Below, piece after piece: positions 12,162-42,167 of a DNA stretch of 43,516 bases; positions within the stretch are counted from its first letter, which is position 1, and the number at the start of each line of letters is the position of its first letter. This DNA is from a virus. The position numbers and the translations under genes were made by a program. The notes under the pieces are model-generated. The model worked only from the letters and a program-made list of their open reading frames with translations, was not told the DNA's origin and made no database searches. The stretch lies in the IMG/VR virus record IMGVR_UViG_3300042474_000958, positions 1-43,516 of that record. One strand, 5' to 3'.

Positions 12162-13451
12162 TTAATTAAAATCTAACTTATCTTTAAAATTATTGATTAA
12201 AAGATACTTCAAGCAATCCATTAAGTGTGATAATTCAGAGCCTGTGCCTGTAGTTTTCTTTAATAACTTGCCATCACTACCAACCTCGCAATAAGTCAAG
12301 TCATTTATCATAAGTTTACAATTCGGATTGATATAACACAAATCAGTATGGAACGCCCTGCTAATTAACTCCCTGCTATTCAAATTAGAATGATTGACAC
12401 TAGGTATTACAAATTGATAGCCAGATAGCTTTAATTTGTCTGCAATTACTTGATAATAAGTTATTCCACCCTTACTAATTGCTTGTCTATTTTTGCCTGT
12501 GGCATCACCTGTTACCATTATATTATTAGATTTTGGCAATTTCATTCTTATATGGTCGCATAGTTCGTAAATATCACTATCTCTTAATACAAATTCTTCA
12601 ATTACTACAATCTTATTGCCTTGTAATTGCCCTGCTATACAAGTCATAGGATTGACGTTAAAGTCAAAGCTAAGGTAAATAGTTCCATTATTATATTCAC
12701 AATCTTGTACGTGTTTTTCTTTTCTGAATGTAGGGATAAATGGTTTGTCTACTTCGGCTTTACCCCATTTACCATATAAATTGACATCGAGTAAATTTTG
12801 ATTATGTGAATAATTGAGCCTTAATGTTTCTTCATATTTTTCTCTATCTATAAATTCGTTATTGGCAAATGTAGAATGATTAACATAAGAATCTAAGAAA
12901 TCAACTTTTATTTTACTATCATTATTTTCATCAAAGAAATAAGTCCTTAACCAGCTATTGACATCAACTGGATTAAAGCTAATTATAAATTGATGATTCT
13001 TATTTAATGGAGTTCTAAGTAGTGCATTTAATGTAGTAAAATCATCTTGACTACCTTTGTTTATCTCATCCCACCATATAATAGTAGGGTCTGAAAGTCC
13101 TTTTGTATTTTCTGCATTATCCATTCCGAGTGCTGTAAACTCTGTGCCTGTAATTAAGTTTTTAAATCCGTAATTGGTTTTATTAATACTAAAGTACTTA
13201 GTCAATCCAAGTGCTTTTAATACCTTAATTATATCTTTGAATTGATTTTTACGAATGTCACCAAATACCTTATTGACATATACTATATGATTATACTCCT
13301 GTAGAAATGATATTGATATTAGTTTAAGTATAATGTTATGTGTTTTACCACCACCTCGACCGCCCCACAATATTTGATACCTATTTTTAGAAGCTAAAAA
13401 AGATTTGAAGTGTAAACTATACCATTCTCTTTTTATCTTGAATTTTTGCAT
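12162..13451 (-). CDS. terL: Terminase large subunit
   Basis: 429 residues. ATPase: Walker A WGGRGGGKT at 29-37, Walker B IIWWDE with D128 and E129. RNase H-like nuclease: SFDFNVNP (D263), TGDATG (D316) and HLMDCLKYLL (D412), the three acidic metal ligands expected. It translocates DNA into the procapsid through the portal and cuts the concatemer. The ATG overlaps the end of the small-subunit gene by one base. All key residues are present. Confidence 0.95.
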   Translation of the reverse strand: MQKFKIKREWYSLHFKSFLASKNRYQILWGGRGGGKTHNIILKLISISFLQEYNHIVYVNKVFGDIRKNQFKDIIKVLKALGLTKYFSINKTNYGFKNLITGTEFTALGMDNAENTKGLSDPTIIWWDEINKGSQDDFTTLNALLRTPLNKNHQFIISFNPVDVNSWLRTYFFDENNDSKIKVDFLDSYVNHSTFANNEFIDREKYEETLRLNYSHNQNLLDVNLYGKWGKAEVDKPFIPTFRKEKHVQDCEYNNGTIYLSFDFNVNPMTCIAGQLQGNKIVVIEEFVLRDSDIYELCDHIRMKLPKSNNIMVTGDATGKNRQAISKGGITYYQVIADKLKLSGYQFVIPSVNHSNLNSRELISRAFHTDLCYINPNCKLMINDLTYCEVGSDGKLLKKTTGTGSELSHLMDCLKYLLINNFKDKLDFN

Positions 13452-13774
13452 TATTCCTCAATGAATAAATCATCTGCACCTTTTAATATTGTGATATCTT
13501 GTTTTGTAGAAGCATTCCACCCGAATACATCAATTAGTAGTTTTATTGCTTGTAAGTCGCCTTTATTTGCCTTATCCATTAATACATAAGCGATATTGCT
13601 TTCTAGTGTTAATTCAGTACCTCCAACATTACTTTTGACCACTTCTCCAAAGTGATTTAAAGCATCTTTAAACCTAGTTATTCTTTTAGGAACTCTTTTA
13701 GCTTCATTTGGTGGTTGATTTGTGCTACTGAATAACTTACCCCCCTTACCTTTTAAATTCTCTCCTTTTGGCAT
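13451..13774 (-). CDS. terS: Putative terminase small subunit
   Basis: 107 residues beginning MPKGENLKGKGGKLFSSTNQ. The disordered basic start followed by a short helical domain (about 30-100) resembles small terminase-associated proteins of Bacteroidetes phages. It immediately precedes and overlaps the large-subunit gene, the canonical place for the DNA-recognition subunit. It is shorter than most small subunits, and the N-terminal helix-turn-helix expected in that family appears instead in the neighbouring gene 13798-14445. Confidence 0.65.
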   Translation of the reverse strand: MPKGENLKGKGGKLFSSTNQPPNEAKRVPKRITRFKDALNHFGEVVKSNVGGTELTLESNIAYVLMDKANKGDLQAIKLLIDVFGWNASTKQDITILKGADDLFIEE

Positions 13775-13797: not shown

Positions 13798-14445
13798 TTA
13801 TGATACAATATATTTAAACTTATAAGTTTCATAATTTTCACATATTATTCTTTTAGCTTCAATTTTTGTAATATCAATTCCATTTATCATTATAGGATTT
13901 ACTGCGAATTTTCTAATTACATTAAGAACCATATTAACACGTTCTGTTATTCCTAAAATATTAACTGAATGTATATTCCCTACTTTAGGAAAATTTTTAA
14001 ACATATTAATTAACTTATAAATTGGATATTCACTAACTCCTTTATTATAAATAACATTGCATAATTTAAAATTCAAACTATTGCATCTAATTATTAATTC
14101 CTTTTCAATTTTATATGCTTGTAATTCATTATTGGTAGTATAAAGAATTGAATAAGTTATTATATTTTCATTTTGAGCTAATTCATTATTTATGCTATTA
14201 TTTGAACTTTTATAAAAATGTGTTAATACTCTATTTTTTTTACCTTTACCTATATACCATATTTTATTATTTTTAAATATGCCATAAATATAATAACCTC
14301 TTTGTGGTATAGATTTATCAAAATTTGCATTAGATTTTTGTATGTTTGAAATTATTATATCTATATCATTTTGATAGCTTTTTATAGCATCATTTGTGAG
14401 TATATACTCATCTGCAAATATTTGATGTTTTTTGTTTGGTATCAT
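13798..14445 (-). CDS. GIY-YIG-type nuclease domain protein with terminase-like N-terminus
   Basis: 215 residues. Residues 5-25 (KKHQIFADEYILTNDAIKSYQ) resemble the start of small terminase subunits (xxQxxFxxEYxxxxNAxxSYx). Residues 50-135 look like a GIY-YIG nuclease: GYYIYGI at 50-56, WYIGKG at 63-68, N-R72-VLTHF with the likely catalytic Arg, and IEKELI near 113-118 with the conserved acidic residue. The gene sits between the dioxygenase gene and the terminase small subunit, a common place for intronless homing nucleases. It may be a homing endonuclease that captured or invaded a terminase small-subunit gene, or a packaging-linked nuclease. Confidence 0.7.
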   Translation of the reverse strand: MIPNKKHQIFADEYILTNDAIKSYQNDIDIIISNIQKSNANFDKSIPQRGYYIYGIFKNNKIWYIGKGKKNRVLTHFYKSSNNSINNELAQNENIITYSILYTTNNELQAYKIEKELIIRCNSLNFKLCNVIYNKGVSEYPIYKLINMFKNFPKVGNIHSVNILGITERVNMVLNVIRKFAVNPIMINGIDITKIEAKRIICENYETYKFKYIVS

Positions 14446-14448
14446 AAT

Positions 14449-15246
14449 TTAGTCTTTTAATCCTACAAATGCCTTTAATGGATAAAAAACAAGTGAATTT
14501 CTATAGCCACCTTCGTGAGTTGGTATAATTGGTGTTACGCCATGAACATTTCGCCACGCTGGATAAACTAATATTGAATTGTCTTGCTGACCAATAGTAG
14601 CTCCGTAATCTGGAACGTGCAAATCTCCACCTTTTGAATTGAATTTTTTACAAATAATTACGTTTACTGCTCCAACTATATTGCCAGCGTCACGGTGGAA
14701 TGGTGCTGAAATATTATAATTTGAAATAGAACTTGTAAACAGATTTCCAAACTTCCATTTTTCTGGCACTTGTTTAAATAATTCAACTTGCTGCTCATAT
14801 TGTTTTGGCAATAATTCTTTTATTAATTGCTCACTTTCTTTTGCTAATAATAGCATAGCTTTTATAAATGTTTGTGCTGTTTTTACTCCGTGAACACTTG
14901 ATAAAGTTGCATAGTTTCTTCTCATATGTGGCTTTGGAGGTACAGAACCGATTATTGTAGAATATTGCAATACTACATTTTTATATTTATACTTTCCTGT
15001 TTTTTCATCAATACCATCTGTAGGTGCTCTTTTCATTTCTGTTTTAGGTACATTTTTAGTCCTTAATTCAGAATTGGCTAAATCAGCTAATTTGCACATT
15101 TTTTCTGGCATTTGCTTCATATAAAAGCCTATTGGTTCGCCATCTGCATAAAATATACAATCTTCTGTAATGTTTGGCTCGATATACTCACAGGCTTCGC
15201 CAATTTTACGATTATGTTCTATTGGTGTTAAATCAATTATTTTCAT
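14449..15246 (-). CDS. 2OG-Fe(II) dioxygenase, TET/JBP-like, probable DNA base hydroxylase
   Basis: 265 residues. The C-terminal double-stranded beta-helix shows the full iron and cosubstrate set: H184-x-D186 in APFHRDAGN, H235 in WRNVHGV, and R249 fourteen residues later for 2-oxoglutarate (GGYRNSLVFY), with the GGDLHVPDYG strand between. This order is that of TET/JBP-type oxygenases, which oxidise the methyl group of 5-methylcytosine or thymine. The start overlaps the upstream glycosyltransferase gene by 14 bases, and a ParB-like gene precedes that. A free-nucleotide or protein hydroxylase cannot be excluded, but the neighbours favour a DNA base. Confidence 0.8.
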   Translation of the reverse strand: MKIIDLTPIEHNRKIGEACEYIEPNITEDCIFYADGEPIGFYMKQMPEKMCKLADLANSELRTKNVPKTEMKRAPTDGIDEKTGKYKYKNVVLQYSTIIGSVPPKPHMRRNYATLSSVHGVKTAQTFIKAMLLLAKESEQLIKELLPKQYEQQVELFKQVPEKWKFGNLFTSSISNYNISAPFHRDAGNIVGAVNVIICKKFNSKGGDLHVPDYGATIGQQDNSILVYPAWRNVHGVTPIIPTHEGGYRNSLVFYPLKAFVGLKD

Positions 15247-15967
15247 ATAATTTTTTCTTATTAATTTGTATTTGATTTAATCTTTTGCTATGTGGTTCTA
15301 GTATGCCATTGTGTTTACTTATTACATACGAATTGCATATTTTTTCTTTTTCTATAGTTCTATAATCATTTGCACCTCCTTTATTATTTCTGTGTGGGAA
15401 TTTCATTTGTAAACAATCAAACCTCATTATTGTATATCCACTTTTAATTTGAGTTACATACATATCATAATCTTCTTTTAAATCTGCAAACTCATCATAT
15501 TCTATTTTATTTCTAATTAATATACAATCATTAACTACTAATTGATTCAATGATATTGGTTTACCAGTATAATGCAATATACTATCTGTAATTGAAACAC
15601 CAGCTAAATTACATTTATCTATTTTAATAAAATTATTTAACATAAATGCTAGTGCTTTCTTAAAAGTTATTTTTGTTCTTAAATAATTACCTTTTTCACC
15701 ATGAATTAAATTGCAATATTGATAATCATCAGATATTTGTAAGCAAATTAAATTTTTTGAATCTAATATAGCTTTATTTCTTGCTTTACAAATATTACCA
15801 TCAACTTCTACAACATTAGTAGCACCATAATTCAAATATGTTTGTTTTTCATTTTTTTTTGTATAAAAAGTAAATTTTAAACCAGTATTATCTTCTATTT
15901 TTTTTATATTCTCTGGTCTATTTGTAGATATACAAGCACAATATATATTAAATTCATGATTAATCAT
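15233..15967 (-). CDS. Glycosyltransferase, TET-associated / GREB1-JGT-like, probable DNA base modifier
   Basis: 244 residues from the ATG at 15967, which overlaps the ParB stop as ATGA; a longer frame reading back inside parB is less likely. GT-A features: N-terminal strand INHEFNIYCACISTNRPENI, an acidic SDDY motif at 79-82 for metal and sugar nucleotide, then LKEDYDMYV at 163-171 and NNKGGANDYR at 194-203. The KEDYD and GG pattern is what I recall from glycosyltransferases beside phage TET/JBP oxygenases, related to kinetoplastid base J glucosyltransferase. It probably attaches a sugar to the hydroxylated base made by the overlapping downstream gene product. Confidence 0.7.
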   Translation of the reverse strand: MINHEFNIYCACISTNRPENIKKIEDNTGLKFTFYTKKNEKQTYLNYGATNVVEVDGNICKARNKAILDSKNLICLQISDDYQYCNLIHGEKGNYLRTKITFKKALAFMLNNFIKIDKCNLAGVSITDSILHYTGKPISLNQLVVNDCILIRNKIEYDEFADLKEDYDMYVTQIKSGYTIMRFDCLQMKFPHRNNKGGANDYRTIEKEKICNSYVISKHNGILEPHSKRLNQIQINKKKLYENN

Positions 15968-16578
15968 AATTTTTCTTTTTCTGCTTTTAGCTTTTCCATT
16001 AAGAACCCACCTACATACAATTTTTGTTCTCTCCAAAATTTCACAAGTTGATAAGCTTCTTCATAGTGTTCTGATTCAAACTCTATTTGTATGGCTTTCT
16101 TTACACCATTTGTCATATCGTTTAATTGGTCTTGTACATCATCATCATCTAGTATTGAATAATCTATTTTTGATTCTTGATTTTTTACATCTACAAAAAC
16201 CTCTTCAACCTCAAATTCAAATTCATTAGCAATTATCTCTACAAGCTCCACATCAATATTTTGGTTCTTTTGCGCTACTGTGTTTGCAAGTATCGAAGCC
16301 TTATGAAATTCTTTTGTACCACTTTCAATATCCGTTCTTTTTATTACTACTGGAGTAGTTCCATCTGTTTCTACTATTATAGCATCATTTGTGAATTTTT
16401 GCCCTATTTTCTCGTGCCTAGCATTTCCGCTTATAATTACATTATCATTGCTTATAGTTACACTTTCAATAATTCCTACTTGTTCTAGTGAATTATCTAG
16501 TGTGTGCATACCATACTCGGTGTGCTTGTTTGTATTCCTGCTATCAGGTTTTATATCTTTAAATTTTATTTTTGCCAT
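15964..16578 (-). CDS. ParB/Srx-like domain protein
   Basis: 204 residues from ATG 16578; a GTG three bases upstream is an alternative. The N-terminal ParB/sulfiredoxin fold is clear: an Asn-rich opening (RNTNKHTEYG), LDNSLEQVGIIESVTI, then the nucleotide-binding motif SGNARHEKIG at 50-59. The C-terminal part is acidic and helical. ParB-like proteins of this class often accompany phage DNA-modification genes and may bind DNA or hydrolyse CTP. It is translationally coupled to the glycosyltransferase gene. Confidence 0.8.
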   Translation of the reverse strand: MAKIKFKDIKPDSRNTNKHTEYGMHTLDNSLEQVGIIESVTISNDNVIISGNARHEKIGQKFTNDAIIVETDGTTPVVIKRTDIESGTKEFHKASILANTVAQKNQNIDVELVEIIANEFEFEVEEVFVDVKNQESKIDYSILDDDDVQDQLNDMTNGVKKAIQIEFESEHYEEAYQLVKFWREQKLYVGGFLMEKLKAEKEKL

Positions 16579-17447: not shown

Positions 17448-17530
17448 CTTGATTATCAATAACTTACACTTTATTTTGCATATTTGTAAAAATAAATTTT
17501 TATTTTCGTAAAAAGGTTGTATATTTGCAT
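17448..17530 (+). promoter_or_regulatory. Rightward early promoter with upstream conserved box (copy 1)
   Basis: Contains CTTGATTATCAATA (17448-17461), then a 48-base promoter block (17483-17530) ending in TATATTTG (17520-17527) with TTTT at 17497-17500, 19 bases upstream, in the -33 position. The block matches 30241-30288 with 4 differences. The predicted transcript starts near 17531, 19 bases before the first gene. The shared upstream box may be an activator or repressor site common to both units. Confidence 0.7.
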
Positions 17531-17549
17531 ATAATTTAAAACAAAAAAA

Positions 17550-17777
17550 ATGAAAAATTACAATAAAAAAACAAAAAAAGCATACGTGCCTAGATTTACA
17601 AGTGATGGTGTTGTTAGTCAAGAGTATATCAATAATAGAAATGAGAATTATAAACAAAATCGTGCTAATTTCGACACAACATTACCATCATGGCATAATA
17701 TGAGTGCCGAAGATAAATATAAATTTGAATTAGAAAGAGAAGCCGATAAAAGAGGTTCTCATAGTACATTTAATTAA
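17550..17777 (+). CDS. Small early hypothetical protein, 75 aa
   Basis: 75 residues, basic N-terminus (KNYNKKTKKAYVPRF) and an acidic helical end (SAEDKYKFELEREADKRG). It is the first gene after the early promoter repeat, a typical place for host-takeover genes. No family recognised. Confidence 0.55.
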   Translation: MKNYNKKTKKAYVPRFTSDGVVSQEYINNRNENYKQNRANFDTTLPSWHNMSAEDKYKFELEREADKRGSHSTFN

Positions 17778-18169: not shown

Positions 18170-19465
18170 ATGAAAAGATATTTAGATAAAAACGTATATG
18201 ATGCATCTACTGAAAGATTAAACTTTATTTTTTTAAATTTTGAAAAAGTATATATTTCTTTTTCAGGCGGTAAAGATAGTGGAGTTTTGCTAAATCTAGT
18301 TATTGATTATGTTCGTAAAAACAATATTAATAAAAAAATAGGCATACAGATATTAGATAATGAAGCTAATTATGAATATTCATTAACTTTTATGCATAAA
18401 ATTTTAAAAGCAAATTTAGATATATTAGATATTTATTGGTGTTGTTTACCAATTACACTTCCTTGTACAGTCTCTTCTTATGAAACAGATTGGCAGTGTT
18501 GGGGAGTTAATGACCAAAAAAGGTGGATAAGACCAATGCCAAAAGAAGATTATATTGTAAATATAGATAATCATAAATTTAACTTTTTTAAAGAAAATAT
18601 GCAATATGACCATTTTTGGGATGGATTTGCTGAATGGTATGCTGATGGTAAATTAACAGCTAATTTAATAGGTATTAGAGCAGATGAAAGTTTAAATAGG
18701 TTCAGGGCAATAGCTAATGATAATAAAGAAACATTAAAAGGCAATATTTGGACTAAAAAAAACACAACAAATGTATTTAATTGCTATCCTATATATGATT
18801 GGAAAACAAAAGATATATGGGTTGCAAATGCAAAGTTTAATTGGTTATATAATGAATTATATGATGTGTTTTATATGGCAGGTCTTAACATTGCTCAAAT
18901 GAGAGTAGCAAGTCCATTTATGAGTGAAAGTAAGTCATCATTAAATCTATATAGAGTTATAGACCCAAACGTATGGCAAAGGCTATGTGCTAGAGTAATG
19001 GGAGCAAATTTTGTTGCTACTTATGGAAAACAATTAGATTATAAGTCTTTTAAATTACCAGAAGGACACACATGGAAAAGCTTTGTTAAGTTTCTATTAA
19101 ATACATTGCCAGAAGAAACATCAAAAAATTTTAAAATGCGATTTATTCAATCATTTAAGTATTGGGGTAGAATAGGTCGTGGATTGAAACCCCAAGTAAT
19201 AAAAGATTTGAGTAAAATTGGAATTAATTATCGTTTAAATGGCAAAACTGTTCATGGTTCAAAAGAACTTGATAGAGTTATAATAAAATCATTCCCAGAC
19301 CATGTAGATGGATTAAGTGGTAATCATAGTGATGTAGCTAGTTGGAAAAGATTTGCTATTACTATTCTTAAAAATGACCACACTTGCAAGTATATGGGAT
19401 TAGCACCTACAAAAGAAAAATTAGAAAGACTTAAACAAATAAAACATAAATATAGTAAAATATGA
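18170..19465 (+). CDS. IbrA-like PAPS reductase family protein (DUF3440)
   Basis: 431 residues. The N-terminal adenine nucleotide alpha-hydrolase fold has the PP-loop SGGKDS at 32-37. LIGIRADESLNRF (about residues 166-178) and NCYPIYDWKTKDIW match conserved stretches of the PAPS reductase/DUF3440 family (E. coli IbrA). The helical C-terminal half is also typical. No iron-sulfur cysteine set of true PAPS reductase is obvious, so an adenylating role, perhaps on nucleic acid, is more likely than sulfate reduction. The cupin gene overlaps its end by 4 bases and an IbrB-like gene follows. Confidence 0.8.
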   Translation: MKRYLDKNVYDASTERLNFIFLNFEKVYISFSGGKDSGVLLNLVIDYVRKNNINKKIGIQILDNEANYEYSLTFMHKILKANLDILDIYWCCLPITLPCTVSSYETDWQCWGVNDQKRWIRPMPKEDYIVNIDNHKFNFFKENMQYDHFWDGFAEWYADGKLTANLIGIRADESLNRFRAIANDNKETLKGNIWTKKNTTNVFNCYPIYDWKTKDIWVANAKFNWLYNELYDVFYMAGLNIAQMRVASPFMSESKSSLNLYRVIDPNVWQRLCARVMGANFVATYGKQLDYKSFKLPEGHTWKSFVKFLLNTLPEETSKNFKMRFIQSFKYWGRIGRGLKPQVIKDLSKIGINYRLNGKTVHGSKELDRVIIKSFPDHVDGLSGNHSDVASWKRFAITILKNDHTCKYMGLAPTKEKLERLKQIKHKYSKI

Positions 19466-19833
19466 AAGTAGTAAACGTAAATGATTTAGCAAATACTAAC
19501 AGAGATGTTAAATTTAAAGAAGGATGGTCAATAAGACCAGTTGTAAAAAGTGATGGTATGGGATTTAGCGTACATAAAACAATGATTAGAAAAGGAACTA
19601 TAGGACATTGGCATTATAAAAATCATTTAGAAAGTTGTTATTGTATTTCTGGCAAAGGTATTTTGACATCTTTAGATGATGGAAAATCATATGAAATAAC
19701 TCCAGATGTAATATATTCTTTAGATAGTCATGATAATCATACTTTTGAAGCTATAACAGATGTTGTATTAATATCAATATTTAATCCGCCAGTAAAAGGG
19801 AATGAAACACATAAAGAAGATGGAAGCTACTAA
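19462..19833 (+). CDS. Ectoine synthase-like cupin
   Basis: 123 residues, close to full length for EctC. Conserved stretches: HYKNHLESCYCISGKG (51-66), YSLDSHDNH (85-93) and NPPVKGNETHKEDGSY at the end. The iron ligands I recall for a characterised EctC (Glu57, Tyr85, His93) fall on the same residue types and numbers here. EctC cyclises N-gamma-acetyl-diaminobutyrate to ectoine; no ectA or ectB is present, so the phage would need a host supply or use another substrate. It overlaps the IbrA-like gene by ATGA. Confidence 0.75.
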   Translation: MKVVNVNDLANTNRDVKFKEGWSIRPVVKSDGMGFSVHKTMIRKGTIGHWHYKNHLESCYCISGKGILTSLDDGKSYEITPDVIYSLDSHDNHTFEAITDVVLISIFNPPVKGNETHKEDGSY

Positions 19834-20221
19834 AAAAACTTTTTATTATTGGGAAACATATAAAAATGGAATGTATAAAACATATTCTGAAATTGAAAAC
19901 TATGATTACTTATTTAATTGTGCTAAAAATGTTTTAACTAATCAATCAATTTTTCATGAATTTGGAATAAGTTTAATTACTAATTGGCATATAGTATGTA
20001 ATGTTTTTTTAAATAATTCACATATTAATAAAACCGCTTTTATTGGTCAAGCATCGTGTTGTTATGCATATAAAGTGCCAGAAATTATAACTAAAGATGT
20101 TTGGAAAATTTTAGATATTGAAACACAAAATAAAGCAAATAAAACAGCAATTATAATAATAAAAGAATATGAAGCAAGATATAGAAAATTATATTCAAAA
20201 ATGGAAGAAATATGGATATAA
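19820..20221 (+). CDS. Hypothetical protein in the IbrA/IbrB module, 133 aa
   Basis: Start taken at ATG 19820 (MEATKKTFYYWETYKNG); an earlier ATG at 19802 would add six residues. Both overlap the cupin gene. It is aromatic-rich in the first half and has a helical end (KAIIIIKEYEARYRKLYSKM-like). No known domain. Its place inside the overlapping gene string suggests a partner of the flanking modification-type proteins. Confidence 0.55.
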   Translation: MEATKKTFYYWETYKNGMYKTYSEIENYDYLFNCAKNVLTNQSIFHEFGISLITNWHIVCNVFLNNSHINKTAFIGQASCCYAYKVPEIITKDVWKILDIETQNKANKTAIIIIKEYEARYRKLYSKMEEIWI

Positions 20222-20423
20222 AGAAATTCCTGATGAAGTACCATTAAGAATACAACAATTAGGATTAGCACCAAGCTATAAGGAATTATGTATATTAATT
20301 TTAAACAATGAAATACAAATTAAAAAAAATAAAAAGTCTGCTATATACTATGAATTAAAAAGAATAGAATTAACAGATAAAGGTAAAATATTTAAATCAA
20401 ATCAACTAAAATTAAAATTATGA
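20169..20423 (+). CDS. Small IbrA-associated protein, 84 aa
   Basis: 84 residues. The segment IPDEVPLRIQQLGLAPSYKE followed by LCILILNNE resembles a short conserved protein or domain that I recall beside DUF3440/PAPS-reductase-like genes. It overlaps the preceding gene by 53 bases and the ParB-like gene by 4 (ATGA), showing tight coupling. The role is probably structural or DNA-targeting within that module; no catalytic residues are evident. Confidence 0.6.
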   Translation: MKQDIENYIQKWKKYGYKEIPDEVPLRIQQLGLAPSYKELCILILNNEIQIKKNKKSAIYYELKRIELTDKGKIFKSNQLKLKL

Positions 20424-20944
20424 AAGAATTTATTAGTCCAGTTTACAATGTACTTAGAATACCGTTAAGTAAAATTAAAGCAAATAGTTATAACCCTAAC
20501 TCAGTTGCTCCACCTGAAATGCAATTACTTGAAACATCTATATGGGAAGATGGATATACTCAACCAGTCGTATGTTATTATGATAAAGATGAAGATATGT
20601 ATATTGTTGTTGATGGTTTCCATAGATATAGAATATGTAAGGAAAGTAAAAGGGTAAATGAAAGAGAAAATGGAACTTTGCCTATTGTAGTTATTGATAA
20701 AGAAATAGGAGATAGGATGGCTTCAACAATCAGACATAATAGAGCAAGGGGTTCACACAATATAGAATTAATGAGTAGCATAGTTGCAGAACTTGTTGAG
20801 ATAGGTAAGGGAGATGCTTGGATATGTAAACATATAGGCATGAGTTCAGATGAACTTTTAAGACTAAAGCAAATTACTGGATTAGCTTCTTTATTTTTAA
20901 ACCAAGACTTTTCTAAAAGTTGGGAAATAGAAAAAGGATTATAA
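20420..20944 (+). CDS. IbrB-like ParB domain protein
   Basis: 174 residues. ParB/Srx domain: IPLSKIKANSYNPNSVAPPE at 14-33, DGYTQPVVCYYD at 44-55, VVDGFHRYRI at 63-72 (nucleotide-binding core), and RHNRARGSHN at 105-114, followed by a helix-turn-helix-like region (WICKHIGMSSDELLRLKQI). It matches the known IbrB arrangement and pairs with the IbrA-like gene upstream. ParB domains of this type bind or hydrolyse nucleotides and may direct the partner to DNA. Last gene of the early rightward string. Confidence 0.8.
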   Translation: MKEFISPVYNVLRIPLSKIKANSYNPNSVAPPEMQLLETSIWEDGYTQPVVCYYDKDEDMYIVVDGFHRYRICKESKRVNERENGTLPIVVIDKEIGDRMASTIRHNRARGSHNIELMSSIVAELVEIGKGDAWICKHIGMSSDELLRLKQITGLASLFLNQDFSKSWEIEKGL

Positions 20945-30194: not shown

Positions 30195-30288
30195 CTTGAT
30201 TATCAATACTTTATAAAAATAATGCTTTTTTATTTGCATTTTTGTACAAATAAATTTGCATATTCGTAAAAAGGTTGTATATTTGCAT
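30195..30288 (+). promoter_or_regulatory. Rightward early promoter with upstream conserved box (copy 2)
   Basis: CTTGATTATCAATA (30195-30208), then the 48-base block 30241-30288 with TTTG (30255-30258), 19 bases and TATATTTG (30278-30285). It matches copy 1 (17448-17530); the box-to-promoter distance is 11 bases longer, one helical turn. It would start the recombination gene unit near 30289. Confidence 0.75.
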
Positions 30289-30314
30289 CATCAATTAAAC
30301 AAACAAAATAAAAA

Positions 30315-30560
30315 ATGAAGATTCTAATTAAAGACACAAACACAAACGAGTATTACGCAGTAGGATGTGAAGCTAATCCTAAAGGTTTTTTATCGAATGC
30401 GCAAGATGAAGGTAGCCCTGATATTAATGATTTTCCATTTTGGACAGATAATATTGATGAGGCTTATGATTTTGGAAGCAAAAGTCTAGCGATTCATGAA
30501 ATGAATATGAATGACACTACCGAGGACGGAACTCGTAATCCAATAATTGTTGCTGAATAA
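30315..30560 (+). CDS. Small acidic hypothetical protein, 81 aa
   Basis: 81 residues, acidic, starting MKILIKDTNTNEYYAVGCEA. First gene after early promoter copy 2. Charge mimicry of DNA is possible but not shown. No family recognised. Confidence 0.55.
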   Translation: MKILIKDTNTNEYYAVGCEANPKGFLSNAQDEGSPDINDFPFWTDNIDEAYDFGSKSLAIHEMNMNDTTEDGTRNPIIVAE

Positions 30561-32874: not shown

Positions 32875-33302
32875 AATACACATCAACTATAAGATTAGAT
32901 AACGGAGTTTTAAAACTCGTAAACAAAGCTGAAATGCTTAAATTTGCATTATCTTTGAATTGTAAGGAGTTTACATTTACTTTGGAAAAGAAACGAAGTA
33001 AAAGAAGCAATGAACAGAATAGATATTATTGGGGTGTAGTAGTTCCATTAGTAAAAAAAGGTCTTACAGAATTAGGGAATGTAGTTAGTTTAGAAAGTAC
33101 ACATGATTTTATAAAATCTGAATTTAATTATAAAGAAATTGTAAATGAAACGACTGGCGAAGTAAAAAAGTTGCCTAATAGTACAACACAACTAAACAAA
33201 ACAGAGTTTAGTGAAATGATTGAACGAGTTAAAATATGGAGTGCTGAATGGTGCAATATTTATATACCAGATGCAGGAGAACAAATAAGTTTTGAACTAT
33301 GA
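32871..33302 (+). CDS. NinB-like recombination protein with TTG start
   Basis: 143 residues. The stretch KKRSKRSNEQNRYYWGVVVP at 41-60 is the NinB hallmark (RSxxQNRYYWG), followed by TELGN and a conserved WCNIYIPD end. NinB (Orf) acts as a mediator with SSB in recombination. The start is TTG 32871 overlapping the exonuclease stop as TTGA; no in-frame ATG precedes it after the TGA at 32859. Confidence 0.8.
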   Translation: MKYTSTIRLDNGVLKLVNKAEMLKFALSLNCKEFTFTLEKKRSKRSNEQNRYYWGVVVPLVKKGLTELGNVVSLESTHDFIKSEFNYKEIVNETTGEVKKLPNSTTQLNKTEFSEMIERVKIWSAEWCNIYIPDAGEQISFEL

Positions 33303-33928
33303 TAACAATATTTTCATACCAACGTAAAGAAATGCTTACTAATTTACTTAGTGAGTTAGAAAAATATGAACCTATTATATTAGATGATGGTAGTGATTTT
33401 AAATTAGAATCATCAAACTTTCATCAATTTGAGCATGGTGGTAAAGAAAATTTCTATAAACTTTGGCAATTTGCATTTAGTGAAGCACAAAAAAGCAATG
33501 ATGATTTTTTTATATTTTTACCTAGTGATTTTAGTAATATTGACTTATATAGAATTTATGATTACTACAATCAATTAAGGCATGAATCTTTTGTTTGTAA
33601 TATTATAAATGATAATCGTAAATCTTGCTGGGGGTCGTACCATCCTATGAAATACAATAGCGAATTAAATAGAGTTTTCTTTACTGATTGCGGATTTTTC
33701 TGTAATAGATTAGCACTCGAAAAAATAGATTTTCACATTAAGGCAGTACCAAAAAGTAGATTTAATAGAACTAATATATCAAGTGGAGTAGGTCAATACT
33801 TAACTTATATATTTAATAAAAAAAATGTAAAGATATACACTCCTATAAGCTCATTAGCTTTTCATGGTGAGCATGAAAGTTTAATGCACCCAGAAGAACG
33901 AATTAAAACACCATTAATAAGTAGATGA
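33299..33928 (+). CDS. Glycosyltransferase-like protein (GT-A type)
   Basis: 209 residues. N-terminal ITIFSYQRKEMLTNLLSELE and ILDDGSD (about 27-33) look like the nucleotide-sugar binding start of GT-A enzymes; FFIFLPSDF near 71-79 may be the metal motif. Also contains FTDCGFFCNR and a His-rich end (LAFHGEHESLMH). Overlaps the NinB-like gene by 4. Could glycosylate DNA, a virion protein or host surface. Confidence 0.6.
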   Translation: MITIFSYQRKEMLTNLLSELEKYEPIILDDGSDFKLESSNFHQFEHGGKENFYKLWQFAFSEAQKSNDDFFIFLPSDFSNIDLYRIYDYYNQLRHESFVCNIINDNRKSCWGSYHPMKYNSELNRVFFTDCGFFCNRLALEKIDFHIKAVPKSRFNRTNISSGVGQYLTYIFNKKNVKIYTPISSLAFHGEHESLMHPEERIKTPLISR

Positions 33929-34167
33929 AAAAAAGAGATTTAAAAGAAATAAAAAAACTTGCTGATAATTTACCACCTAGTAAAGAACTTCATTTGCATT
34001 ATCCAATTATAAAAGGAATAAAACAACCTAAATATATGCTTGTTGATATAAACCATTATGATAGATTAAAAAAAGCATATACTAGAAATAAAGAAACTGG
34101 GATGCAAGGATATATCACTTGGTTAAAAAATAATAACGAAAAGATAAATAAAATGTTTAATCAATGA
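33925..34167 (+). CDS. Small basic hypothetical protein, 80 aa
   Basis: 80 residues, basic, starting MKKRDLKEIKKLADNLPPSK. Lies between two glycosyltransferase-like genes, overlapping both by 4 bases (ATGA). Possibly an adaptor; no domain known. Confidence 0.55.
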   Translation: MKKRDLKEIKKLADNLPPSKELHLHYPIIKGIKQPKYMLVDINHYDRLKKAYTRNKETGMQGYITWLKNNNEKINKMFNQ

Positions 34168-34790
34168 AAATAATAGTAGGCATTGCCACAATGAACGGAC
34201 GTGAAGAGCAATTAAAAGAAACTTTTGAAAGTCTTTGCCCTTATGTAGATGAAATAAACATTTACCACAACGGAATAGAACCAATAGATTATACAGATAA
34301 TGCTAAGTTTGAAAGCCTACAAAGATACAATGAACCGATTTATTTTTTTTCATGTGATGATGACATAATTTATCCCAAAAATTATATAAGTAAAACTATT
34401 GAATTAATAGAAGAGTATAAATGTATCATAACTTATCATGGCAGAATATTAAAAGGTAAAGGATTGAACTATTACAAAGGACATCAAGCGTTCCATTGCA
34501 AAGGTGCTAATTATGTAAATAGATATATTGATATAGCAGGAACTGGAGTAACTGCTTTTAGAACTGATTATTTTAATCCAATAGAACTTTATAAAAGTGA
34601 ATACAAAAGAATGTTTGATTTGGTATTTAGTTTAGAAGCTAAAAAACAAGGCAAAAAAATATTATTAGGTAAGCACGATGCAAATTGGATTAAAGTCCAA
34701 AATATTCCACTAGAAAATACTATATATGGTATGGAAGTCAAAGACTGCTCAATTCAAAATAGTCTAGCAGATGAAATTCTAAGCTATTAA
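34164..34790 (+). CDS. Glycosyltransferase family 2-like protein
   Basis: 208 residues. KIIVGIATMNGREEQLKETF at the start and FFSCDDDIIYPKNYI with D65-D67 as the metal-binding DxD are typical of GT2-like enzymes. FHCKGANYVN and TGVTAFRTDYF follow. It converges with the tail fibre gene, the two stops overlapping by four bases without a terminator. A possible extra sugar-adding enzyme for modified DNA or virion decoration. Confidence 0.7.
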   Translation: MKIIVGIATMNGREEQLKETFESLCPYVDEINIYHNGIEPIDYTDNAKFESLQRYNEPIYFFSCDDDIIYPKNYISKTIELIEEYKCIITYHGRILKGKGLNYYKGHQAFHCKGANYVNRYIDIAGTGVTAFRTDYFNPIELYKSEYKRMFDLVFSLEAKKQGKKILLGKHDANWIKVQNIPLENTIYGMEVKDCSIQNSLADEILSY

Positions 34791-41084: not shown

Positions 41085-42167
41085 ATGAAAAACAATAAAC
41101 ATAATTTCCCTTACAGGTGGACTTTAAAAGATGCAGTATTTACCAAAGACAAAGGCAAAGTATTTTCTTGCTTTGCTTGTGGTGGTGGTTCAACAATGGG
41201 TTATAAATTAGCTGGATTTGATGTATTAGGATGCAATGAAATTGACCCTAAAATGATTGAAGCATACAAAGTGAACCACAATCCAAAATATGCTTATTTA
41301 GAGCCAATACAGACCTTTAAATTAAGAACTGATTTGCCTGATGAATTATACAATTTGGATATTTTAGATGGTTCGCCACCTTGTAGCAGTTTTTCAATGG
41401 CTGGAAATAGAGAAAAAGACTGGGGAAAAGAAAAAGTGTTTAGAGAAGGACAAGCTGAACAAGTTTTAGATACTTTATTTTTTGATTTTATTGATTTAGC
41501 AAAAGAATTACAACCGAAAGTAGTAGTAGCTGAAAATGTAAAAGGTTTATTAATGGGAGAAGCTAAACAATATGTTATTAAAATTTATGATGCATTTGAT
41601 AAAGCTGGTTATTATTGTCAACATTTTTTGTTAGATGCTTCAAAAATGGGTGTGCCACAAAAAAGAGAACGTGTTTTTTTTATAGCATTAAGACAGAATT
41701 TAGCACAACCGTTTTTACATTTTGCAGATATGTTTACAGAATTACCTAAAATAGAAATTTCTTTTAATGAAAAAGAAATTCCATTTAAAAAAGTAAAAGA
41801 CAAAAACAATAATGACTATCCAATAAGTGATTTTTATAAAACTCTCTGGGAAAAAAGACAAAAAGGAGATGCTTCTTTTGCTAACATAAATGGTAGAGAA
41901 AGAGGAAAAGAGAATACAGGTTTTGGAACTAATTTTTTATATGATGATAATGTTTGTGGCACTTTAACGACAAAAAAAGACTGTTATTGTTTATTTGACG
42001 AGCCAAGATATACGAGCGACACAGAAGCAAAAAAAATAGGAAGCTATCCTCAAGATTATAACTTTTTAGGACTTAAACCAAATTATTTAATAGGAATGAG
42101 TGTTCCCCCTGTAATGACTGCACAAATAGCAAAACAAGTTTATGAACAATGGTTAAGTAAATTTTAA
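41085..42167 (+). CDS. DNA cytosine-5 methyltransferase
   Basis: 360 residues with all main C5-MTase motifs in order: motif I FACGGGSTMG at 30-39, motif IV DGSPPCSSFS with catalytic C100, motif VI AENVKG (E150), motif VIII QKRERVFFI at 192-200, a target-recognition region (about 205-300), and motif X near IGMSVPPVMTAQIAKQV. It would make 5-methylcytosine in phage DNA. No restriction endonuclease lies beside it. It has its own promoter and converges with the lipoprotein gene with overlapping stops. Confidence 0.95.
   Translation: MKNNKHNFPYRWTLKDAVFTKDKGKVFSCFACGGGSTMGYKLAGFDVLGCNEIDPKMIEAYKVNHNPKYAYLEPIQTFKLRTDLPDELYNLDILDGSPPCSSFSMAGNREKDWGKEKVFREGQAEQVLDTLFFDFIDLAKELQPKVVVAENVKGLLMGEAKQYVIKIYDAFDKAGYYCQHFLLDASKMGVPQKRERVFFIALRQNLAQPFLHFADMFTELPKIEISFNEKEIPFKKVKDKNNNDYPISDFYKTLWEKRQKGDASFANINGRERGKENTGFGTNFLYDDNVCGTLTTKKDCYCLFDEPRYTSDTEAKKIGSYPQDYNFLGLKPNYLIGMSVPPVMTAQIAKQVYEQWLSKF

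Follow-up and report, generated by a model that had tools for sequence, protein, structure and literature searches.

The window analysed here is an IMG/VR virus record of 43,516 nucleotides whose ends carry a near-perfect direct repeat of 199 bp (1 mismatch), which implies that the genome is essentially complete and circularly mapping, at about 43.3 kb. Immediately upstream of its terminase genes, three consecutive minus-strand genes encode a ParB-like protein, a GT-A glycosyltransferase and a TET/JBP-type dioxygenase (Table 1). The parB stop and the glycosyltransferase start (ATG 15967) share an ATGA overlap of 4 nt, and the glycosyltransferase and TET genes overlap by 14 nt (TET start, ATG 15246; glycosyltransferase stop, 15233). 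A sequence-only reading of this DNA had described the three genes, joined by overlapping stops and starts, as a candidate base-J-like hypermodification operon acting together with a distal C5-cytosine methyltransferase; all three are present as described, and the methyltransferase gene is real.

Table 1. Features of the cassette, its flanks and the distal methyltransferase in the window.
Feature	Coordinates	Strand	Details
ParB-like gene, 204 aa	15964..16578	-	ATG 16578, stop 15964; PHROGs 620/498
ParB N-domain, about residues 1-131	to ~16184		Phage-lineage specific
ParB C-terminal ~70 aa, TET-specific tail	16183-15964	-	
GT-A glycosyltransferase, TAGT family, 244 aa	15233..15967	-	PF20691; DD80-81, ED165-166, GG197-198 conserved
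TET/JBP-type Fe(II)/2-oxoglutarate dioxygenase, 265 aa	14449..15246	-	PF12851; H184-R-D186, N189, H235, R249
Exchange cassette (ParB tail + TAGT + TET)	14446..16183	-	Swapped as a unit in sister phages
GIY-YIG-like ORF, weak match	13798..14445	-	Downstream cassette border; presence varies among sisters
Small terminase-like gene	13451..13774	-	Constant flank
Large terminase	12162..13451	-	PF04466; constant flank, 98-100% in sisters
Distal C5-cytosine methyltransferase	41085..42167	+	PF00145, 1.5e-45

The dioxygenase scores 44.7 bits against PF12851 (Tet_JBP; curated cut-off 34.9), and H184 and D186 of the HxD motif, N189 three residues past it, H235 and R249 are invariant among 39 homologues. 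When the TET profile is compared with PDB sequences, human TET2 is the first match, followed by CMD1, both being weak, and the HRD motif and the C-terminal His/Arg region align, again weakly, with TET2. The AlphaFold2 model (pLDDT 81, with parts of the active-site surroundings weaker) has the TET/JBP-type double-stranded beta-helix fold, and its best 26 PDB fold matches are all TET/JBP DNA dioxygenases, ahead of any other dioxygenase (CcTet 1.6e-7, human TET2 3.7e-7, NgTET1 7.7e-6 and CMD1 8.7e-6). Pfam and fold therefore agree on the identity proposed from sequence, and the best folds are not those of protein hydroxylases. The PHROGs label of this family (phrog_6059), "queuine tRNA-ribosyltransferase", has no support from sequence or fold and is a probable propagated misannotation; the same label stands on TET/JBP genes of RefSeq phages, including NC_020847.1 (17129-17914) and many actinophage records.

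The glycosyltransferase matches PF20691 (TAGT) at 38.1 bits against a cut-off of 27.5. D80 and D166, the latter in the KEDYD motif, are invariant among 24 homologues, with GG197-198 nearly so, and the model (pLDDT 93) adopts a GT-A fold. Its proposed membership of the TET-associated glycosyltransferases is thus upheld by the family score, the fold and the acidic metal-site motif. The nearest PDB folds are glycan or protein glycosyltransferases. No TAGT was returned by a search of PDB sequences with this protein, and tblastn found no relatives of it in cultured phages.

The locus differs among close relatives of the phage. In the TET-less sister (IMG/VR record 3300042402_003359; 43,102 bp with a 117-bp end repeat), which is 98-99% identical to the window over most of its length, a 380-aa ABC-ATPase/GNAT protein stands in for window positions 14446-16183. 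Eight loci with terminases 98-100% identical to those of the window hold three alternative occupants, namely the ABC-ATPase/GNAT protein (L171 and L178), a fusion of ParB with an N6_N4 methyltransferase (L172 and L177), and a C5 methyltransferase (L173-L176; the L173 record, at 168,934 bp, may be compound). Base-by-base comparison of six loci puts the upstream border inside parB, at window positions 16184-16187, and the downstream border at 14445 in most and at 13798 where the GIY-YIG ORF is also absent. Several independent records have the same borders, which makes assembly error an improbable cause of the exchange. One address is thus common to four different modification modules and, as read from these alignments, the locus is an exchange slot. 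A relationship of the ABC-ATPase/GNAT protein to Mom was rejected (hhalign probability of 0.1% against Mu Mom), and we name it by its domains only.

Relatives are encoded in at least 600 IMG/VR stretches. The usual gene order among IMG/VR contigs, in a survey of 80 retained loci plus others, is ParB-X-TET-TerS-TerL; this order is also found in cultured Prochlorococcus phages, and cultured actinophages have ParB-TET with the terminase mostly near. X is a TAGT glycosyltransferase in 36 cases, an FkbM methyltransferase in 31 and a P-loop kinase in 11 (several with ADDT); otherwise it is a sulfotransferase (1), a protein lacking a Pfam match (3), which may be another glycosyltransferase, or absent. 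Placed on a quick tree of 85 TETs, the X labels change about 20 times against a minimum of 5, and the well-supported branches alone require at least 6 changes for the glycosyltransferase and at least 6 for FkbM. Moreover, the window TET is 95% identical to that of L002 while their glycosyltransferases share only 21%, and the window glycosyltransferase is 57-59% identical to those of L083, L084 and L086, for which the corresponding TETs reach only 54-58%. In Rhodococcus phage Tonitrus, a kinase-like gene lies in a single run with those for ParB, TET and aGPT-Pplase. Several individual loci carry unusual contents. L074 has a sulfotransferase (1663-2241; PF03567, 6e-16) between a TAGT-like gene and TET, which suggests a sulfated sugar on DNA, and between the ParB and TET genes of L078 (3979-6416) lie those for a PLP-type enzyme and an ADDT-P-loop fusion, which would constitute a TET-initiated version of thymidine hypermodification. 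Proteins with no Pfam match occupy the ParB-TET slot in L016 (2-607) and L030 (5507-6409), and L279, L333 and L340 also carry further proteins there.

Among the sister phages, ParB N-domains are almost identical regardless of the cassette, and the last ~70 residues change with it. Compared with other TET-linked ParBs, the window protein is 71% identical in this tail, against a median of 23% (maximum 34%) in the N-domain. With a profile of the tail, 79 of 81 TET-linked ParBs are recovered and 0 of 62 that are linked to ABC-GNAT, and in cross-validation a tail profile built from FkbM, glycosyltransferase or kinase loci alone recovers both remaining classes in full. In the reverse direction, where the window tail was the only query and TET played no part in the selection, a TET lies within 3.5 kb in 79 of 79 loci having enough downstream sequence, a set that covers close tails only and includes about 25 loci on contigs shared with the forward comparison. 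ABC-GNAT cassettes have their own distinct ParB tail, with ParB directly upstream in 61 of 67. By sequence, then, the ParB is chimeric, its N-domain belonging to the phage and its ~70-residue tail to the TET. The protein is probably an adaptor that brings TET to DNA, and docking of TET by the tail would be the simplest mechanism to account for the linkage. Both the exchange slot and the TET-specific tail go beyond what had been noticed in the sequence.

The host is likely to be a Flavobacterium-like member of the Bacteroidetes. Its assignment to this group in the sequence-only reading agrees with the nearest DNA in the phage collection, which is the C5 methyltransferase of Flavobacterium phages (84% DNA identity, phage tooticki), and with a Bacteroidetes-type promoter pattern found 9 times against 3.1 expected; no Flavobacterium phages are among the TET hits. 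A search of 84,980 prokaryote species gave no close TET relatives and hence no prophage evidence on the host, which fits a virulent lifestyle. Elsewhere in the window, positions 18170-20944 form a second variable locus, which encodes a PAPS-reductase-like DUF3440 protein, a cupin resembling ectoine synthase (PF06339, 1e-44) and a second ParB (20420-20944; 24.6 bits, below the Pfam cut-off of 26.3). Sister G025 has a SNF2 helicase/N6_N4 methyltransferase fusion there instead, and in L172 the flanks are nearly adjacent. The second ParB, which the sequence-only reading had paired with the operon, belongs with the DUF3440 gene outside the cassette, a combination that recalls IbrA/IbrB. Two ORFs with weak Glycos_transf_2 matches, at 33299-33928 and 34164-34790 (E 0.033 and 0.0013), also lie outside the slot, in a region common to the TET-less sister. 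A short AT-rich repeat at 17470-17565 and 30229-30322, with matches in sister phages too, may represent a regulatory element that is repeated.

DNA hypermodification is well supported as the predicted function of the cassette, as the earlier reading had it, by family scores above cut-off, the TET fold and the DNA-modifying genes in the sister slots. From gene identities, folds, slot exchange, tail-TET linkage and the independence of the C5 methyltransferase, all read from sequence, we infer chemistry, a thymine target, docking and protection as follows. TET would act on a pyrimidine of the phage DNA and hydroxylate its 5-methyl group, with thymine as the most likely substrate (giving 5-hydroxymethyluracil), and TAGT would add a sugar to the new hydroxyl; the sugar-decorated base would shield phage DNA from host nucleases. 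ParB would serve as the DNA-targeting adaptor, with the N-domain of its own phage engaging DNA and the C-terminal tail docking TET, and the slot beside the terminase genes would allow phages to trade DNA-modifying chemistries. We hold this explanation as a whole, that of a post-replicative hypermodification cassette with a ParB adaptor in an exchange slot, with moderate confidence.

The chain in the sequence-only reading ran instead through cytosine: 5mC made by the distal C5 methyltransferase, or by the host, would be oxidized by TET to 5hmC and then glycosylated by TAGT. Such a route is reported for other phage TET operons (cited in PMC12730594), and according to citing papers the phage TETs studied biochemically act on 5mC (Burke 2021). 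The window genome does carry a C5 methyltransferase, the TET profile aligns with the 5mC enzymes TET2 and CMD1, and Pfam TAGT is named after its TET association. The distribution of the methyltransferase, however, argues against it. Of 44 other viral records with TET, 5 contain PF00145 (2 of them as partial hits), as does 1 of 27 ABC-GNAT control records (Fisher p = 0.40). Since most records are incomplete, these absences are partly uncertain; TET records G015 and G068, which have end repeats and are complete, lack PF00145. Only 2 of 26 records with a close relative of the window methyltransferase have a TET. The TET-less sister G025, with a genome 98% identical to the window, retains the methyltransferase at 100% identity, and two further sisters have homologues at 70-73%. 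In the window, 25 kb separate this gene from the cassette. On the co-occurrence counts and sister G025 we reject the C5 methyltransferase as a cassette partner; it is present here but independent, rather than co-inherited as in a TET/TAGT/C5 methyltransferase system, and the chain through it is not supported. In addition, no thymidylate-synthase-type hydroxymethylase (PF00303) was detected in 30 records (29 TET phages or the window, and one sister), leaving no apparent source of a hydroxymethyl pyrimidine other than TET. Genes for ADDT, kinase-like proteins or P-loop kinases, PLP-type enzymes and aGPT-Pplase accompany related TETs, and kinases of this sort act on 5hmdU in known phages (PMC6449724). 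The missing methyltransferase link, the lack of another hydroxymethyl source and the kinase and amino acid:DNA transferase genes that neighbour related TETs together make thymine the likelier predicted target, as in base J. A base J-like route needs no enzyme that makes 5mC, and none of the 9 complete cultured TET phages has PF00145, although their 5mC could be host-made. Because the chain through the distal methyltransferase lacks support, the base-J-like title of the earlier reading (T to hmU to sugar) is, as a prediction, better supported than its cytosine text. 5mC from the host or from the window's own methyltransferase could still feed TET, but we regard the cytosine route as unlikely.

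The main alternative to an adaptor role of ParB is that the tail is a generic C-terminal domain that travels with TET since the breakpoint falls inside parB, as it does in all sisters, leaving the tail physically on the exchanged piece. Nevertheless, the same tail and TET flank decorator genes that are freely exchanged, and linkage alone would therefore not preserve neighbours. Moreover, the tail is conserved between the window phage and Prochlorococcus phages despite unrelated N-domains, and the ABC-GNAT cassettes have a tail of their own, so that we find mere hitch-hiking doubtful. It is far less probable that the enzymes act on protein, tRNA or a cell-surface glycan, with the slot being a mixed moron site. 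The nearest PDB folds of the glycosyltransferase and the PHROGs label of the TET family point in that direction; DNA methyltransferases among the other slot occupants, the ranking of DNA dioxygenases first among the TET fold matches, and the partners ADDT and aGPT-Pplase, which are DNA-modification families, all argue against it.

Phage operons joining TET/JBP, ParB and decorating enzymes were reportedly predicted by Iyer et al. in 2013. Relative to operons of that type, the TET-specific ParB tail and the exchange of four predicted chemistries among near-identical phages do not appear in the literature surveyed. The phage TET/TAGT/C5 methyltransferase operons of Burke et al. 2021 (PNAS) reportedly also place TET/JBP beside a TET-associated glycosyltransferase; the window differs in its unlinked and independent C5 methyltransferase, its TET-specific ParB tail and its exchange slot. 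The base J pathway of kinetoplastids (JBP1/JBP2 and the J glucosyltransferase) shares the predicted post-replicative hydroxylation of T followed by glucosylation, but the window cassette would serve phage protection rather than mark chromatin, uses a different glycosyltransferase and has no J-binding domain. Thymidine hypermodification in phages M6, ViI and phiW-14 offers the same hmU handle, and kinase, amino acid:DNA transferase and PLP-type genes lie beside related TETs; in those phages, however, hmU enters via 5hmdUTP at replication (PMC6449724), whereas TET would make it here after replication. The CmoX/CmoY carboxymethylcytosine system resembles the cassette in that a ParB-domain protein is often found beside the phage DNA-modifying enzyme, but its handle chemistry and enzymes are different, and the role of ParB in such positions is stated to be unknown (PMC12783734). 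Since the tail occurs only with TET and can be separated from the N-domain, this role can be tested directly.

More tentatively, and with somewhat less than even confidence, we suggest that such ParBs are modular targeting subunits, in which an N-domain particular to each phage binds its DNA close to packaging and is joined to an interchangeable C-terminal plug for one class of DNA-modifying enzyme, so that chemistries (TET-initiated thymine decoration, GNAT, and N4/N6 or C5 methylation) are swapped by recombination in mid-parB. With four modification modules among them, the near-identical sisters are in effect a naturally isogenic panel that could show against what each modification protects. 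From the kinase, ADDT, FkbM or sulfotransferase genes that relatives carry in the slot, a range of DNA bases not yet seen can be predicted. TETs of this kind are present in the cultured phages MED4-184/P-HS2 of Prochlorococcus (with the order ParB-FkbM-TET), Acadian of Mycobacterium, Tonitrus of Rhodococcus and Prairie of Arthrobacter; in MED4-184 the predicted base would be an O-methylated hmU, provided that FkbM uses the hydroxyl. If TET acts on T, phages would possess a T-specific TET that is usable as a DNA tool.
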